IMG/VR virus record: IMGVR_UViG_3300027760_000064
Coordinates: 1 to 28,509 of that record
Strand: one strand, 5' to 3'
DNA from: a virus
Length of the DNA stretch: 28,509 nucleotides
This document shows positions 4,906-19,499 of this stretch, piece by piece. Under the pieces are notes generated by a model. The model saw only the letters and a program-made list of their open reading frames with translations, ran no database searches and was not told the DNA's origin. Positions within the stretch are counted from its first letter, which is position 1. Each line of letters begins with the position of its first letter. Made by a program: the position numbers and the translations under genes.

Positions 4906-5394
4906 TTATGCATAAAATATGTGTTTACCTATTTTGGTAATCTTCCGTTTCTTCCAGTGCGGATCAACGTATGTAGCATGATAATACAACGCATCGTTGA
5001 GTTTTGTCAAGCGGTATCCGTCGAACAGAACCTTTTCTGCTGCCGCTTTAGAATCAAGATATTCTTTTGAGTTTGTTGGTATTTGACGTTTATACTTAAT
5101 ACACACCCATGAGAATTGGCAAGTTTTGTTTGTCTTTTGATATACAGTTCTACAGATATTATTTTTGAATAGACCAGAATTAACTCTATTCAACGTGACC
5201 TGTGCAACTGCTAATTTACCTTTAAAAGGTTCAGACTCTGCCTCATAAAAAATATTGTTTGTTAGACAATTTAACTCTTTCTGTATGTTAGGAACTAAAG
5301 AGTATGTTTCTCGCACATTTGCTATTGTTGTAGCGTTCATTAAACCAAAAATGAGAAATGTTCCTAACAAGACTTTGATAGTCTTGTGTAACAT
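4906..5394 (-). CDS. Secreted SleB-type cell wall hydrolase
   Basis: A 162-residue member of the Hydrolase_2/SleB family. Residues 1-25 form a signal peptide (basic start, hydrophobic VLLGTFLIFGL, Ala-rich end). The catalytic region begins CLTNNIFYEAESE with E51 the likely catalytic acid, continues GKLAVAQVTLNRV, and ends with the family signature YYHATYVDPHW (H139) and GKHIFYA. Several Cys (43, 81, 92, 98) could form disulfides after export. Such enzymes cut peptidoglycan in the periplasm; here it is a candidate endolysin or lysis helper. It lies directly downstream of the tmRNA with ribosome site AAGGAAACGA. Confidence 0.85.
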   Translation of the reverse strand: MLHKTIKVLLGTFLIFGLMNATTIANVRETYSLVPNIQKELNCLTNNIFYEAESEPFKGKLAVAQVTLNRVNSGLFKNNICRTVYQKTNKTCQFSWVCIKYKRQIPTNSKEYLDSKAAAEKVLFDGYRLTKLNDALYYHATYVDPHWKKRKITKIGKHIFYA

Positions 5395-5414: not shown

Positions 5415-5583
5415 GAAAGTGGTAGGTTATTCTGTTACGAGGAAACCTACCGAAACCCTAAGCAGTGTTTAGGCTGCTAATGCGTATTCGCTATCATTTG
5501 CGTTTACTTGATTTATTTTTAACGACTGATATGTCGAGTAGCCAATAATTGTACTTATTACTCCGTCGAATCTAGTCAGGCCC
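5415..5583 (-). ncRNA. ssrA: tmRNA coding piece
   Basis: It starts GGGCCTGACTAGATTCGACG, the canonical tmRNA 5' pattern with the TTCGACG D-loop-like sequence. It carries H2, the tag frame (5501-5469) and a closing hairpin GGTAGGTT...AACCTACC (5451-5421). The true 3' terminus is not determinable; 5415 is chosen just after the hairpin. Confidence 0.85.
5469..5501 (-). other. ssrA: tmRNA proteolysis-tag reading frame, ANDSEYALAA-stop
   Basis: Resume codon GCA (5501-5499) is preceded by TAAAC, comparable to TAGTC before GCA in E. coli. Ten codons encode ANDSEYALAA and end at TAA (5471-5469). The ALAA end is the degron recognised by ClpXP-type proteases. Confidence 0.92.
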
Positions 5584-5654
5584 ATCAGAAGCATACTGTT
5601 TGGAACTTTTATTATGAGCATTGTTATCTCATTCACCAGTAGACAATACACTTC
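5584..5654 (-). other. ssrA: tmRNA intervening segment removed on processing
   Basis: These 71 nt separate the CCA end of the acceptor piece from the GGG start of the coding piece. In permuted tmRNAs this segment is cut out by tRNA-processing enzymes, leaving two RNA chains held together by pairing. RNase P cutting before G5583 is inferred. Confidence 0.75.
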
Positions 5655-5725
5655 TGGTGGACCTGGTGGGATTCGCACCCACGTCCGAAATACCTTTCTA
5701 AAAATCAGTTTACTACCATTGAGAA
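5655..5725 (-). ncRNA. ssrA: tmRNA acceptor piece
   Basis: This roughly 71-nt segment holds the 3' strand of H2, the tRNA-like T-arm, the 3' half of the acceptor stem, discriminator A and CCA. Its 5' end is predicted from the promoter at 5732-5760 (start near 5725). The CCA end must be produced by cleavage at 5655. Confidence 0.85.
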
Positions 5726-5731
5726 GTATTT

Positions 5732-5760
5732 AGTATATCAGGACTTGGCGAAGTTGTCAA
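5732..5760 (-). promoter_or_regulatory. sigma70-type promoter of the tmRNA
   Basis: TTGACA (5760-5755), a 17-bp spacer and TATACT (5737-5732) predict a start near 5725, exactly where the acceptor piece should begin. The -35 box contains the TGA stop codon of the tail-fibre gene. Confidence 0.8.
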
Positions 5761-8165
5761 GCACCAGTTACTATTCTCAAATTAAATTCTTTAGAAATTT
5801 CCGACAAAGTTGTCTTGTTTCTGATATAAATTGTACCGCTTGCATTTCTAGTAATATCATCTTGCGTTACCGTGAAAGTAATATATAGACCAATTCCTAC
5901 AGTATAGTAGGCTGATTGTCCTGAACCTCCTTTATTAACGCCGTTAATATTGAAAGTCGTTTGACTACCTATAGCACCACCAGAAACAGAAACTTCATAA
6001 TTCGTTCCTATTCCAGGCGTCAAAGTGTTAACATATTGAGTTGAACCAGATAACTTAACTGTACCAGCTGCTGATGGATCGCCACTAAAATCTCCTGATC
6101 CATCAATTGATCCATCGCCTCCTATGTACCATTTTATAGATGTTGGTGATATATTACCCTGATCATTCAAATAACTAAATGCCGCATCACTATCAAATCC
6201 TAATGCTGGGCCCGCCGACGTTGTAGTTATTGAAGAACTGGCAGAACTAGGTGAACTATCACCAACGGCATTTGTTGCTTTAACAGTAAATGTGTATGTT
6301 GTTCCCGCAGTTAATCCAGTTACATTAAATGTACCACCACTTGCTTGTGATAGTGTTGCAGTGATACTACCAGGACTGGAAAGTATCGTGTATGATGTAA
6401 TAGGTGAGTTACCATTAGATGCTGGTGCAGAAAATGATACATCCGCAGTCGTTTGTCCTGTTGCTGTTGCACCTGTAATCGTTGGTGCACCAGGTACTGT
6501 AGGTATAGCATTCGTTGTCATTGAACCACTATCTGCACTATAAGAACCATTTCCAACAGAGTTAGTTGCTCTAACCTTAAAAGTATAAGATGTGGATGCC
6601 GTTAGTCCGGATACTGTAATTGGAGAACTAGATCCTGTACCAGTTATGTTGCCTGGTGTCGAGATTGCAGTATAACTAGTAATTGCAGCACCGCCATCGG
6701 AAGATGGTGCAGTAAATGATACTGATGCAGTTGTTGTTCCAGTAGGAATAGCAGCGCCAATAGTTGGTGCACCAGGTACAGTTGCAGCAGATGTTGTCGT
6801 TATTGAAGAACTATCTGCACTATATGAACTGTCACCAACAGAGTTAGTTGCTTTTACCTTAAATGTGTATGAAGTACCAGCAGTTAGACCGGTGATATTA
6901 ATTGTACCTGATCCCGATTGACTAATTGTTCCTGTAATATTACCTGGTGTAGATATGGCAGTATATGATGTAATTGCAGCACCACCATTAGATGCGGGTG
7001 CACTAAATGCTACAGTTGCAGTTGTCTGTCCTGTTGCAATAACAGAACCAATCGTTGGTGCACCAGGTACTGTTGCTGCTGATCCAGTAGTTATAGAAGA
7101 TGTTGAAGAACTATATGCGCTATCGCCAACTGAGTTAGTTGCTTTTACTTTAAACGTGTATGTTGTTGAAGGTGATAATCCTGTGACTGTAATTATACCA
7201 TTTCCTGCCTGACTTAATGTTCCAGTTATATTTCCAGGTGTAGATATTGCAGTATATGATGTAATCCCAGCACCACCGTTATTTGCAGGTGCAGTATATG
7301 ATACAGTCGCAGATGTTGAACCAGTTGATGTTGCAACACCAATAGTTGGTGCACCAGGTACTGTTGCAACAGCCGATGTTGTTATTTGATTACTTGACGC
7401 ACTAGAAGAACTATTACCAACAGAGTTTGTTGCATATACTGTGAATGTATATGGCGTATTCGAAGTCAATCCATTAACAGTAATAGTACCAGATCCTGAT
7501 TGACTTAGTGTACCTGTAATTCCTTCTGGCGAAGAAACTGCCGTATATGATGTAATCATTGCACCACCATTTGATGCAGGCGCCGTAAACGATACTGTTG
7601 CTGAAGTTGAACCAGTTGATGTTGCAACACCAATGGTTGGTGCACCAGGTACCGTTGCTGCCACTGATTGTGATGTATCTTCAATGGTGACTGTAACACT
7701 AGTGGCAACTATAGATCCAGATGTAGATCCAGTTCTAATATTAATAGTAAATGTTTGTGAACCTTCAGTTGAACTGTCCGCGACTGGTAATACTAAAAAA
7801 GAACCTATATTATTGTTAATCGTAAACGATCCACTAACAGAAGAAAAGTCTGCATCAGAAGTGGTTATATGATTTATTGTCCAATATAGTGTAGTTCCAG
7901 TTCCGACAAGTGTGGTTGCAATATAATATGCTCCAGAACCACCTTCGTTTATTGTACTACTATACGTCTGGAAAGAATAAGTTGGAGTTGGAGCAGGCGC
8001 ATTTGATTTACCATAGAAATCTGTGGGCATTATCTCAGTAGAACCTGGCGTTGTTTTACCAGATAGTGTACGGACAGCAGTATCATTCAGACTAATTGTT
8101 CCTGACTGAGTGAGTTCTGTTCTAATATCACTTAATGATATAGCACCAGACGATGGTAAAGCCAT
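5757..8165 (-). CDS. Tail fibre/adhesin with Calx-beta-like and five fibronectin III domains
   Basis: An 802-residue virion-type protein. Residues 1-53 (MALPSSGAISLSDIRTEL..., ending TDFYGKS) match the N-terminal head found on many tail-attached proteins of T4-like marine phages. Residues about 64-163 look Calx-beta-like (TINEGG, DFSSVSGSFTI, STEGSQTF). Five fibronectin III repeats follow at about 170-266, 267-363, 364-460, 461-554 and 555-651, each starting (A/P)TVPGAPTI and containing YTF(K/T)V(K/R/Y)ATN(S/A)VG. A 151-residue Gly/Ser-rich domain ends the protein. Such proteins bind cell-surface carbohydrate; receptor recognition is inferred. A late box AATAAATA lies 28 bp upstream of the start. 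Confidence 0.82.
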   Translation of the reverse strand: MALPSSGAISLSDIRTELTQSGTISLNDTAVRTLSGKTTPGSTEIMPTDFYGKSNAPAPTPTYSFQTYSSTINEGGSGAYYIATTLVGTGTTLYWTINHITTSDADFSSVSGSFTINNNIGSFLVLPVADSSTEGSQTFTINIRTGSTSGSIVATSVTVTIEDTSQSVAATVPGAPTIGVATSTGSTSATVSFTAPASNGGAMITSYTAVSSPEGITGTLSQSGSGTITVNGLTSNTPYTFTVYATNSVGNSSSSASSNQITTSAVATVPGAPTIGVATSTGSTSATVSYTAPANNGGAGITSYTAISTPGNITGTLSQAGNGIITVTGLSPSTTYTFKVKATNSVGDSAYSSSTSSITTGSAATVPGAPTIGSVIATGQTTATVAFSAPASNGGAAITSYTAISTPGNITGTISQSGSGTINITGLTAGTSYTFKVKATNSVGDSSYSADSSSITTTSAATVPGAPTIGAAIPTGTTTASVSFTAPSSDGGAAITSYTAISTPGNITGTGSSSPITVSGLTASTSYTFKVRATNSVGNGSYSADSGSMTTNAIPTVPGAPTITGATATGQTTADVSFSAPASNGNSPITSYTILSSPGSITATLSQASGGTFNVTGLTAGTTYTFTVKATNAVGDSSPSSASSSITTTSAGPALGFDSDAAFSYLNDQGNISPTSIKWYIGGDGSIDGSGDFSGDPSAAGTVKLSGSTQYVNTLTPGIGTNYEVSVSGGAIGSQTTFNINGVNKGGSGQSAYYTVGIGLYITFTVTQDDITRNASGTIYIRNKTTLSEISKEFNLRIVTGA
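6213..7658 (-). repeat. Five tandem ~290-bp fibronectin III-encoding repeats
   Basis: Repeat units of 97, 97, 97, 94 and 97 codons lie head to tail within the fibre gene. Units 1 and 2 share an identical GVATSTGSTSATVS segment, indicating recent duplication or recombination between units. Confidence 0.85.
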
Positions 8166-17939: not shown

Positions 17940-19499
17940 ATGAAGATAGTTATTGTCGGCGGCGGTACCGCTGGTTGGATTGCAGCACTAATGATCAGTA
18001 AAAGGCATCCATATCACGAAGTTGCTGTAATAGAATCTAGTAAAATAGGCATTATCGGTGTGGGTGAAAGTACCACAGGCCGAATGACGGATATTCTAGT
18101 AAATTTTGTTCAAGATTTCGGTTGCAATCATGATGAATTTATTGTTGAAACCGGTTCAACATTGAAATATGGCATTCGCCATAAGGGCTGGACAAACAAT
18201 ATCAATCGATCATATTTTGGACCTATTGATGGATCTGATACGAGAAATTCTGTTCCTGACCCATTATTTTCATGGGGATTAAACAGATTAAACAACAATG
18301 ATCTTAACACTATTTCCAAATGCGGTTATTGGGTAAACAACGGTCTTTCTAATTTTAACAAAAATTCAGGCAAATTTAATTCATACTGGCATGCTTTGCA
18401 CGTTGATGCTTTCCTCGTGGGCAAATATCTCAAAAAGATTACCCTAAAAAGTAAAAGCGTTTCTCATATCGATGATGAGGTTGTCAATGTATCATTAAAC
18501 AGTTCCAATGGTTGCATAAAATCAGTAACATTAAAAAGTGGTCAAGTAGTTGATGGTGATTTTTTTATAGATTGTTCAGGTTTTCATAAAGTTTTAATGA
18601 AACATTTATCCAATAATTGGATTAGTTATCAAAAAAACTTGCCGTTGAATACGGGTATGCCATTTCAAATAAAATATAAACGAAATGAAATGCCAGAACC
18701 ATACACTACTGCGTGGGCTCAAAAGAATGGATGGATGTGGCAGACTCCTCTAATGGATCGAAAAGGATGTGGATATGTATTTTCTGATGCGTACACTACA
18801 GCTGATAAAGCACAGGAAGAAATAGAAACTATCTTAGGCCATAAGATCGATCCTATTAAAGTTATTAAATTTGATGCAGGACGGCAAGAGAGTGCTTGGA
18901 TTAAAAATTGTCTAGTTATTGGATTAAGTAGTGCTCTACTAGAGCCACTAGAAGCCACTAGTATTCACTCCACTATTGTTCAATCGCAAAACTTTGTCTT
19001 TGAATATTTAAAGAGTAATATAGAAGATACAATGAATGAAGGGTCAAGACTTATTTACAATAAACGTACCGCAACATTGTATGATGATCTTAAAGATTTC
19101 TTAGTAATGCATTACATGGGAGGTAGACAAGATAGTGAATTTTGGCAAATGATTAACACTGGTATAACTAAAACTCCATACGTTGAAGAATTGTTGTTAA
19201 TGTCAAAATCTAAAGTACCTAGTGTAAATGATTTTCCTAGTTATCCAGGAAGTGCAGGATGGCCATTGTATAGTTTTGTTATGGCAGGTTTAAATTTGAT
19301 TAATCCTAAATGTGGTGAAAAAGACTTAGATATGGTATTACCTGGTAATCGAATAATGAGAGATTTAGCTCATAATCATTATTACGACTTACAAAGTCAA
19401 TGGGCTAATGAAGGACGCCAGTCTATGACATATAATGAGTTTATCTCCTACTTTAGGAATTTGCGACACAAGAACGGATTCTCAGATTTCAAGTATTGA
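17940..19499 (+). CDS. Flavin-dependent halogenase (tryptophan-halogenase family, VirX1-like)
   Basis: A 519-residue FAD enzyme. The FAD site is GGGTAGW (7-13) and GVGESTTG (40-47). The catalytic lysine position of the family corresponds to K76 in STLKYGIRHKGW. The family W-x-W-x-x-P signature is W265-M-W267-Q-T-P270, and EPLEATSIHS (335-344) is the C-terminal substrate/FAD loop. Such enzymes use FADH2, oxygen and halide to make HOX, delivered through K76. A cyanophage homologue (VirX1) iodinates many small molecules. The substrate and flavin reductase partner are unknown. It is the largest gene of the right half and interrupts a run of tiny genes; it is best read as a cargo (auxiliary metabolic) gene. 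Confidence 0.9.
   Translation: MKIVIVGGGTAGWIAALMISKRHPYHEVAVIESSKIGIIGVGESTTGRMTDILVNFVQDFGCNHDEFIVETGSTLKYGIRHKGWTNNINRSYFGPIDGSDTRNSVPDPLFSWGLNRLNNNDLNTISKCGYWVNNGLSNFNKNSGKFNSYWHALHVDAFLVGKYLKKITLKSKSVSHIDDEVVNVSLNSSNGCIKSVTLKSGQVVDGDFFIDCSGFHKVLMKHLSNNWISYQKNLPLNTGMPFQIKYKRNEMPEPYTTAWAQKNGWMWQTPLMDRKGCGYVFSDAYTTADKAQEEIETILGHKIDPIKVIKFDAGRQESAWIKNCLVIGLSSALLEPLEATSIHSTIVQSQNFVFEYLKSNIEDTMNEGSRLIYNKRTATLYDDLKDFLVMHYMGGRQDSEFWQMINTGITKTPYVEELLLMSKSKVPSVNDFPSYPGSAGWPLYSFVMAGLNLINPKCGEKDLDMVLPGNRIMRDLAHNHYYDLQSQWANEGRQSMTYNEFISYFRNLRHKNGFSDFKY

Follow-up and report, generated by a model that had tools for sequence, protein, structure and literature searches.

The tmRNA (ssrA) gene on a 28.5-kb IMG/VR virus sequence, the whole of which is called the window below, raises the question of whether a phage keeps such a gene as a working one, what it would be kept for, and whether the tag that it encodes can tell which bacterium is the host.

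The permuted gene and its surroundings

A single RNA gene was called in the window by ARAGORN, a permuted tmRNA on the minus strand (5747-5378) with the tag ANDSEYALAA*. The whole of the Rfam model RF04321 (tmRNA_permuted; positions 1-213 of 213) was matched with 125.7 bits against a gathering threshold of 47, and RF01850 (beta_tmRNA; 113.3 bits, gathering threshold 84) was the best-matching subtype model. The permuted, two-piece form of the gene was absent from an earlier note on this DNA and was found here: on the minus strand, the 3' acceptor strand with its CCA (5657-5655) lies upstream of GGGCCUG (5583-5577), with 71 nt between them. The gene runs from the T-arm through the CCA, the 71-nt intervening segment, the 5' acceptor strand, the D-loop, the helix 2/pseudoknot region and the tag to a 3' hairpin. 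The tmRNA is also carried by a second assembly of the same virus (L002, 88.9 kb).

All features described here are on the minus strand. The upstream strand of helix 2, which belongs to the 3' acceptor piece, was placed at 5687-5719 by the RF04321 and RF01850 alignments. It is followed by the T-arm (5666-5682), with the stem GUGGG/CCCAC and the loop UGCGAAU, in which a G stands at the usual U55 (position 5676), and by the 3' acceptor strand CAGGUCC with ACCA (5655-5665). Next comes the intervening segment (5584-5654), the removal of which is expected from the permuted layout and would yield a two-piece tmRNA, and then the 5' acceptor strand with the D-loop ACUAGAUUCGACGG (5563-5583), which has an A at the usual G18 (position 5573). 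The downstream strand of helix 2 and the first pseudoknot region (5517-5564) were again located by Rfam alignment. The two acceptor strands (GGGCCUG, 5583-5577; CAGGUCC, 5665-5659) form seven of seven pairs with G3 at 5581 and U70 at 5661, which bears out the earlier reading of a preserved G3-U70 pair. The tag had been read at 5469-5501, and both ARAGORN and codon reading place it exactly there (5501-5469), from the resume codon GCA through a hydrophobic end to the stop UAA (GCA AAT GAT AGC GAA TAC GCA TTA GCA GCC TAA). A search of the window for the tag pattern yields one site; by 100 shuffles, none would be expected. A hairpin AGCAG/CUGCU (5461-5478) extends over the last tag codons and the stop, and the loop of a 3' hairpin GGUAGGUU/AACCUACC (5421-5451) can pair with the UUAGGG after the tag to form a pseudoknot.

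The window virus is a T4-like myovirus: its gp32-like single-strand binding protein is 60 % identical to that of Pelagibacter phage HTVC008M, and a gp59 helicase loader, PhoH and a tryptophan halogenase are also encoded in the window, the last in this T4-like phage by a gene at 17940-19499 (PF04820, 6e-90). No isolate phage is near the window at the DNA level, and by similarity the tmRNA gave merely short T-arm matches among isolate phages. Its neighbours, likewise on the minus strand, are a fibronectin-type-III tail protein upstream (5757-8165; Pfam fn3, 3e-50; PHROG minor tail protein) and a SleB-like cell wall hydrolase downstream, a probable endolysin (4906-5394; PF07486, 2e-24; PHROG endolysin), the gene of which starts about 27 nt past the last tmRNA hairpin. 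In four related contigs (L013, L016, L017, and L018) the neighbouring hydrolase gene is present and a tmRNA was not detected, so the tmRNA is either not essential to the group or located elsewhere in those genomes.

A candidate sigma70-type promoter (5727-5760, minus strand) lies directly upstream of the tmRNA, and its -35 (5760-5755) is overlapped by the end of the fn3 tail-protein gene. The match, TTGACA-N17-TGATATACT, agrees with the consensus in 11 of 12 letters and has a TG before the -10 (TGA, then TATACT at 5737-5732, followed by AAATA); it is a match to the consensus only, and shuffles of the region give about two such sites. TTGACA-17-TATACT is kept in relatives with the same backbone, and two relatives with other backbones (L050 and L057) have a perfect TTGACA-17-TATAAT. 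A T4-late-like TATAAATA is present upstream of the tmRNA in two more relatives with other backbones (L020 and L058), and in the 88.9-kb sister contig this motif precedes genes more often than expected. Of two candidates for a general late promoter, CTAAATA found no support and TATAAATA did.

Evidence for selection on charging, tagging, and structure

Relatives were collected by the neighbouring hydrolase, the acceptor pattern, the tag, and an alternative T-arm, which gave 39 non-redundant tmRNA cores. A stop or frameshift in the tag frame of related phages had been named earlier as the observation that would speak against selection on the tag; it was sought in all 39 cores and none was found, one core (L071) leaving its contig within the tag. 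Relatives found via the neighbouring gene alone had equally intact tags. The tags among the cores are ANDSEYALAA, ANDSEYRLAA, ANDSEYRLVA, ANDEVFALAA, ANDDYFGEVRLAA, and ANDDAFFGETRLAA. Codon changes in the tag are almost all synonymous, and the amino-acid changes are two, A/R at residue 7 and A/V at residue 9.

All seven acceptor pairs form in each of the 36 relatives with both strands readable. In a 29-sequence alignment, the acceptor stem and the T-stem are paired in 100 % of the cells, the T-stem with changes on both sides. The G3-U70 pair is constant (29/29), in contrast to pairs 4-69, 5-68, and 6-67, at which both sides vary; G3-U70 was not demanded in this set, except at nine loci that also came from the acceptor pattern, and CCACCA was required for the stem to be read. 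When acceptor, T-stem, stop hairpin, and 3' hairpin were taken jointly, 94.6 % of the cells were paired and both-side changes were seen at 18 of 25 pairs. The covariation score of the whole tested structure was 0.356, compared with 0.114 for shuffles and 0.075 or less for slid controls. The 3' hairpin by itself had 90.8 % of its cells paired and both-side changes at seven of eight pairs. The 3' pseudoknot was 94.3 % paired, mostly invariant, and showed weak covariation. The sequences with LVA in place of LAA are also those with GUGG/CCAC in place of GCAG/CUGC in the stop-codon hairpin, and thus the end of the tag and the structure change together. Mean pairwise identity was 0.54 for the excised segment and 0.85 for the tag, the latter value being inflated because the tag served to find most of the relatives. 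With G3-U70 constant amid covarying neighbours, 39 open frames, and a more divergent excised segment, the sequence comparisons support well the earlier proposal that charging and tagging are both under selection in these phage tmRNAs and not the remains of a relic.

Two features of the tags may be mentioned separately. Natural phage tags that end in RLVA, with the stop UGA, are present in L009, L012, L014, L045, L052, and L058; the LVA ending resembles that of an engineered ssrA variant (PMC9382460). In L004 and L026, the tag begins with one more Ala codon (GCAGCA or GCAGCT), which gives AANDSEY..., and the stop UAA is followed by a second in-frame UAA.

It is extremely unlikely that the gene is a relic, or an attachment-site copy of a host ssrA gene acquired by integration. 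Although integration into tmRNA genes is common (PMC11915505), no integrase is among the annotated genes of the window, the tmRNA gene is full-length with its flanking helix, tag, predicted pseudoknot, and promoter match, its pairs covary across many phages, and a bacterial source of the tag pattern did not turn up in the 84,980 genomes, as scanned without a positive-control pattern. An interfering decoy, in which the phage RNA would compete with host tmRNA and lower host trans-translation as has been reported for mycobacteriophage DS6A, is also very improbable. There is a precedent in that the tag-less tmRNA of DS6A inhibits the endogenous tmRNA, according to the passage of PMC11915505 in which that work is cited, and the elbow loops of the window tmRNA are noncanonical. 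The window gene, however, keeps a tag frame, a stop hairpin, and a predicted 3' pseudoknot, none of which a decoy would need. Both the decoy and the relic are poorly supported.

At the sequence level, the gene is intact, with its charging identity, tag frame, conserved structure, and promoter match, and SmpB was found in none of the 13 phage records searched, control genomes being positive. The window very probably carries a tmRNA (ssrA) gene that is circularly permuted, encoded by the phage, and functional. By analogy with the established tmRNA pathway, it would be transcribed during infection by the host RNA polymerase, starting at the sigma70-type promoter of the gene. The 71-nt segment would be excised by tRNA-processing enzymes of the host to leave two RNAs that the acceptor stem and helix 2 hold together, and the CCA end would be charged with alanine by host AlaRS via G3-U70. 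Host SmpB, which is probably the one used since none was found in the phage contigs searched, would together with EF-Tu bring the charged tmRNA to ribosomes stalled on broken messages. Translation would resume at GCA, append (A)ANDSEYALAA, and stop at UAA, after which ClpXP-type host proteases would destroy the tagged product. The likely benefit would be ribosome recycling once takeover breaks host mRNA and host ssrA is no longer replenished.

Known phage tmRNAs and the question of the host

Fifty-three two-piece tmRNAs have been counted in isolate phage genomes, and 50 of these are aquatic; that of phage Melnitz was described, and the phage-borne two-piece form was reported to be commoner in aquatic phages (PMC9004378). 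A tmRNA database of 2025 contains 79 unique bacteriophage tmRNA sequences (PMC11915505). When two patterns (T-arm, CCA, 5' acceptor) were run on viral contigs, at least 236 non-redundant permuted tmRNAs were obtained, nearly all with a readable tag; the G3-U70 pair in 236 of 236 of them follows from the construction of the search pattern and was not used. Phage two-piece tmRNAs are a kind already reported, of which the window gene is a further member. Less expected are a phage-only tag family, the natural RLVA tags, and the cassette mosaicism described below.

The Methylophilales phage Melnitz and the pelagiphages Mosig and HTVC008M (PMC9004378; L081 and L082) are, like the window virus, T4-like myophages with a permuted ssrA. 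The tmRNAs of Mosig and HTVC008M best match alpha_tmRNA, whereas that of the window best matches beta_tmRNA, and their tags as read by ARAGORN (GEDNFALAA and ANFNEYALAA, respectively) differ from ANDSEYALAA. SmpB was not found in Mosig or HTVC008M, and the glutamine riboswitch of Melnitz was not found in the window virus. With the betaproteobacterial permuted tmRNA (RF01850) the window gene shares its gene order, its domain layout, and a 10-residue tag of the AND...ALAA style, but it has a UGCGA/AG elbow, leaves the final hairpin of the model unmatched, and carries in its tag an SEY that was not found in the bacterial genomes scanned. Mycobacteriophages, annotated tmRNAs of which were among the matches, resemble the window virus in that their tmRNA is phage-encoded; the standard mycobacteriophage tmRNAs are one-piece and unpermuted.

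In the earlier note it was suggested that the composition of the tag may identify the host lineage, a suggestion that found no support. The pattern AND-[S-like]-E-Y-x-L-[AV]-A had no site in 84,980 bacterial and archaeal genomes, which were scanned without a positive-control pattern, as against matches in 38 viral contigs. A broader tag pattern combined with a required tmRNA core had no match among the prokaryote genomes, again without a positive-control pattern. In addition, the tRNA-like and tag domains appear to recombine independently of each other (see below).

Further evidence comes from cultured phages. The Pseudomonas phages SM1, PaMx31, UF_RH6, PA_L9, and FBPa45 have one tmRNA region in common, which in SM1 (L332), UF_RH6 (L333), and PaMx31 (L334) reads as a permuted beta-type tmRNA with the tag ANDTSFDVRLAA. 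Xanthomonas phage Rb1 (L335) has a permuted tmRNA with the tag ANDDNFRPALRLAA. SM1 and its relatives (Samunavirus) and Rb1 thus share the permuted form with the window, and beta_tmRNA is also the best-matching model for the tmRNA of SM1, the acceptor of which likewise contains G3-U70; they differ from the window in their tags and in having hosts known for a one-piece tmRNA. The isolation hosts of these permuted-tmRNA phages are Pseudomonas aeruginosa and Xanthomonas campestris, and Pseudomonas and Xanthomonas, both gammaproteobacterial, are known for a one-piece tmRNA. Since permuted phage tmRNAs are found on such hosts, neither tag nor gene form follows the host. The window tag cannot name the host bacterium, and phage tmRNA tags are an unsafe guide to it. 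With the SM1-group Pseudomonas phages, a phage tmRNA of the two-piece form can be studied in culture alongside a one-piece tmRNA of the host, so that direct tests become possible of what phage trans-translation is for and of what happens to the tag that the phage itself encodes. The permuted tmRNAs of L332, L333, L334, and L335 are apparently unannotated in their records.

The main rival to the reading given above concerns why the tmRNA is kept. In counter-defence, it would free ribosomes when an mRNA- or tRNA-cleaving defence toxin acts, or it would replace host tmRNA lost in the course of infection; the biochemistry would be the same and the selective reason different. A tag unseen in the bacterial genomes scanned would fit an RNA that works beside or instead of host tmRNA, and the tmRNAs of phages are many and varied, with every tmRNA function retained. 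At the locus, however, no defence-related neighbours were recognised, the tmRNA being flanked by a tail gene and an endolysin gene, and counter-defence is a possible but rather unlikely explanation.

Apparent exchange of the tRNA-like domain, and the elbow loops

Relatives of the window tmRNA differ in a mosaic fashion. In pairs such as L043/L060, L046/L061, and L001/L005, helix 2, the pseudoknot region, the tag, and the 3' domain are 0.92-1.00 identical, while the T-arm (0.68-0.88), the D-loop stretch (0.70-0.85), and the excised segment (0.41-0.48) are less alike. The reverse is seen in L012/L045 and L001/L068, in which the tRNA-like domain has an identity of 1.00 and the excised segment of about 0.95, and helix 2 with the pseudoknot region of 0.39-0.57. 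The cassette pattern was present in 88 of the 357 pairs, themselves non-independent, with both flanks at least 0.8 identical. In many cassette pairs the class of the T-loop and that of the D-loop switch jointly (UUC with GG; UGC or GGC with AG). On the simplest reading of these comparisons, phage tmRNAs appear to trade the tRNA-like domain as a cassette, which the permuted gene order would allow by making that domain contiguous. We consider the chances about even that there is a host-independent, recombining pool of phage two-piece tmRNAs. In such a pool, a tRNA-like cassette of about 130 bp (T-arm, acceptor strands, and D-loop) would be swapped against helix-2/pseudoknot backbones and tag/3' domains, and tags of the ANDSEY[A/R]L[A/V]A type would be phage-specific and serve hosts that differ in tmRNA sequence or gene form.

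The elbow of the window tmRNA, with UGCGA in the T-loop and AG in the D-loop, departs from the canonical UUCGA/GG and from the subtype elbow in the consensus of RF01850 (UUCGA with GG), and we therefore do not propose that the gene is strictly betaproteobacterial in origin. Positions 18 and 55 switch together across the at least 236 phage tmRNAs (109 A18-G55, 106 G18-U55, 18 G18-G55, and 1 A18-U55 among the matches listed), an association that is inflated by the location of both loops within one exchangeable cassette. The noncanonical elbow could weaken SmpB binding or modification; the alphaproteobacterial consensus elbow is similar. An A18/G55 elbow as an invention of phages was ruled out, as the Rfam alphaproteobacterial consensus has GGCRG with AGG. 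A 23-residue tag family, ANAFKPEVTVPxSxFADxELVAA (L218, L226, L229, L230, L260, L265, L270, L272, L280, L291, and L307), occurs with both the canonical UUC/GG and the GGC/AG elbow.
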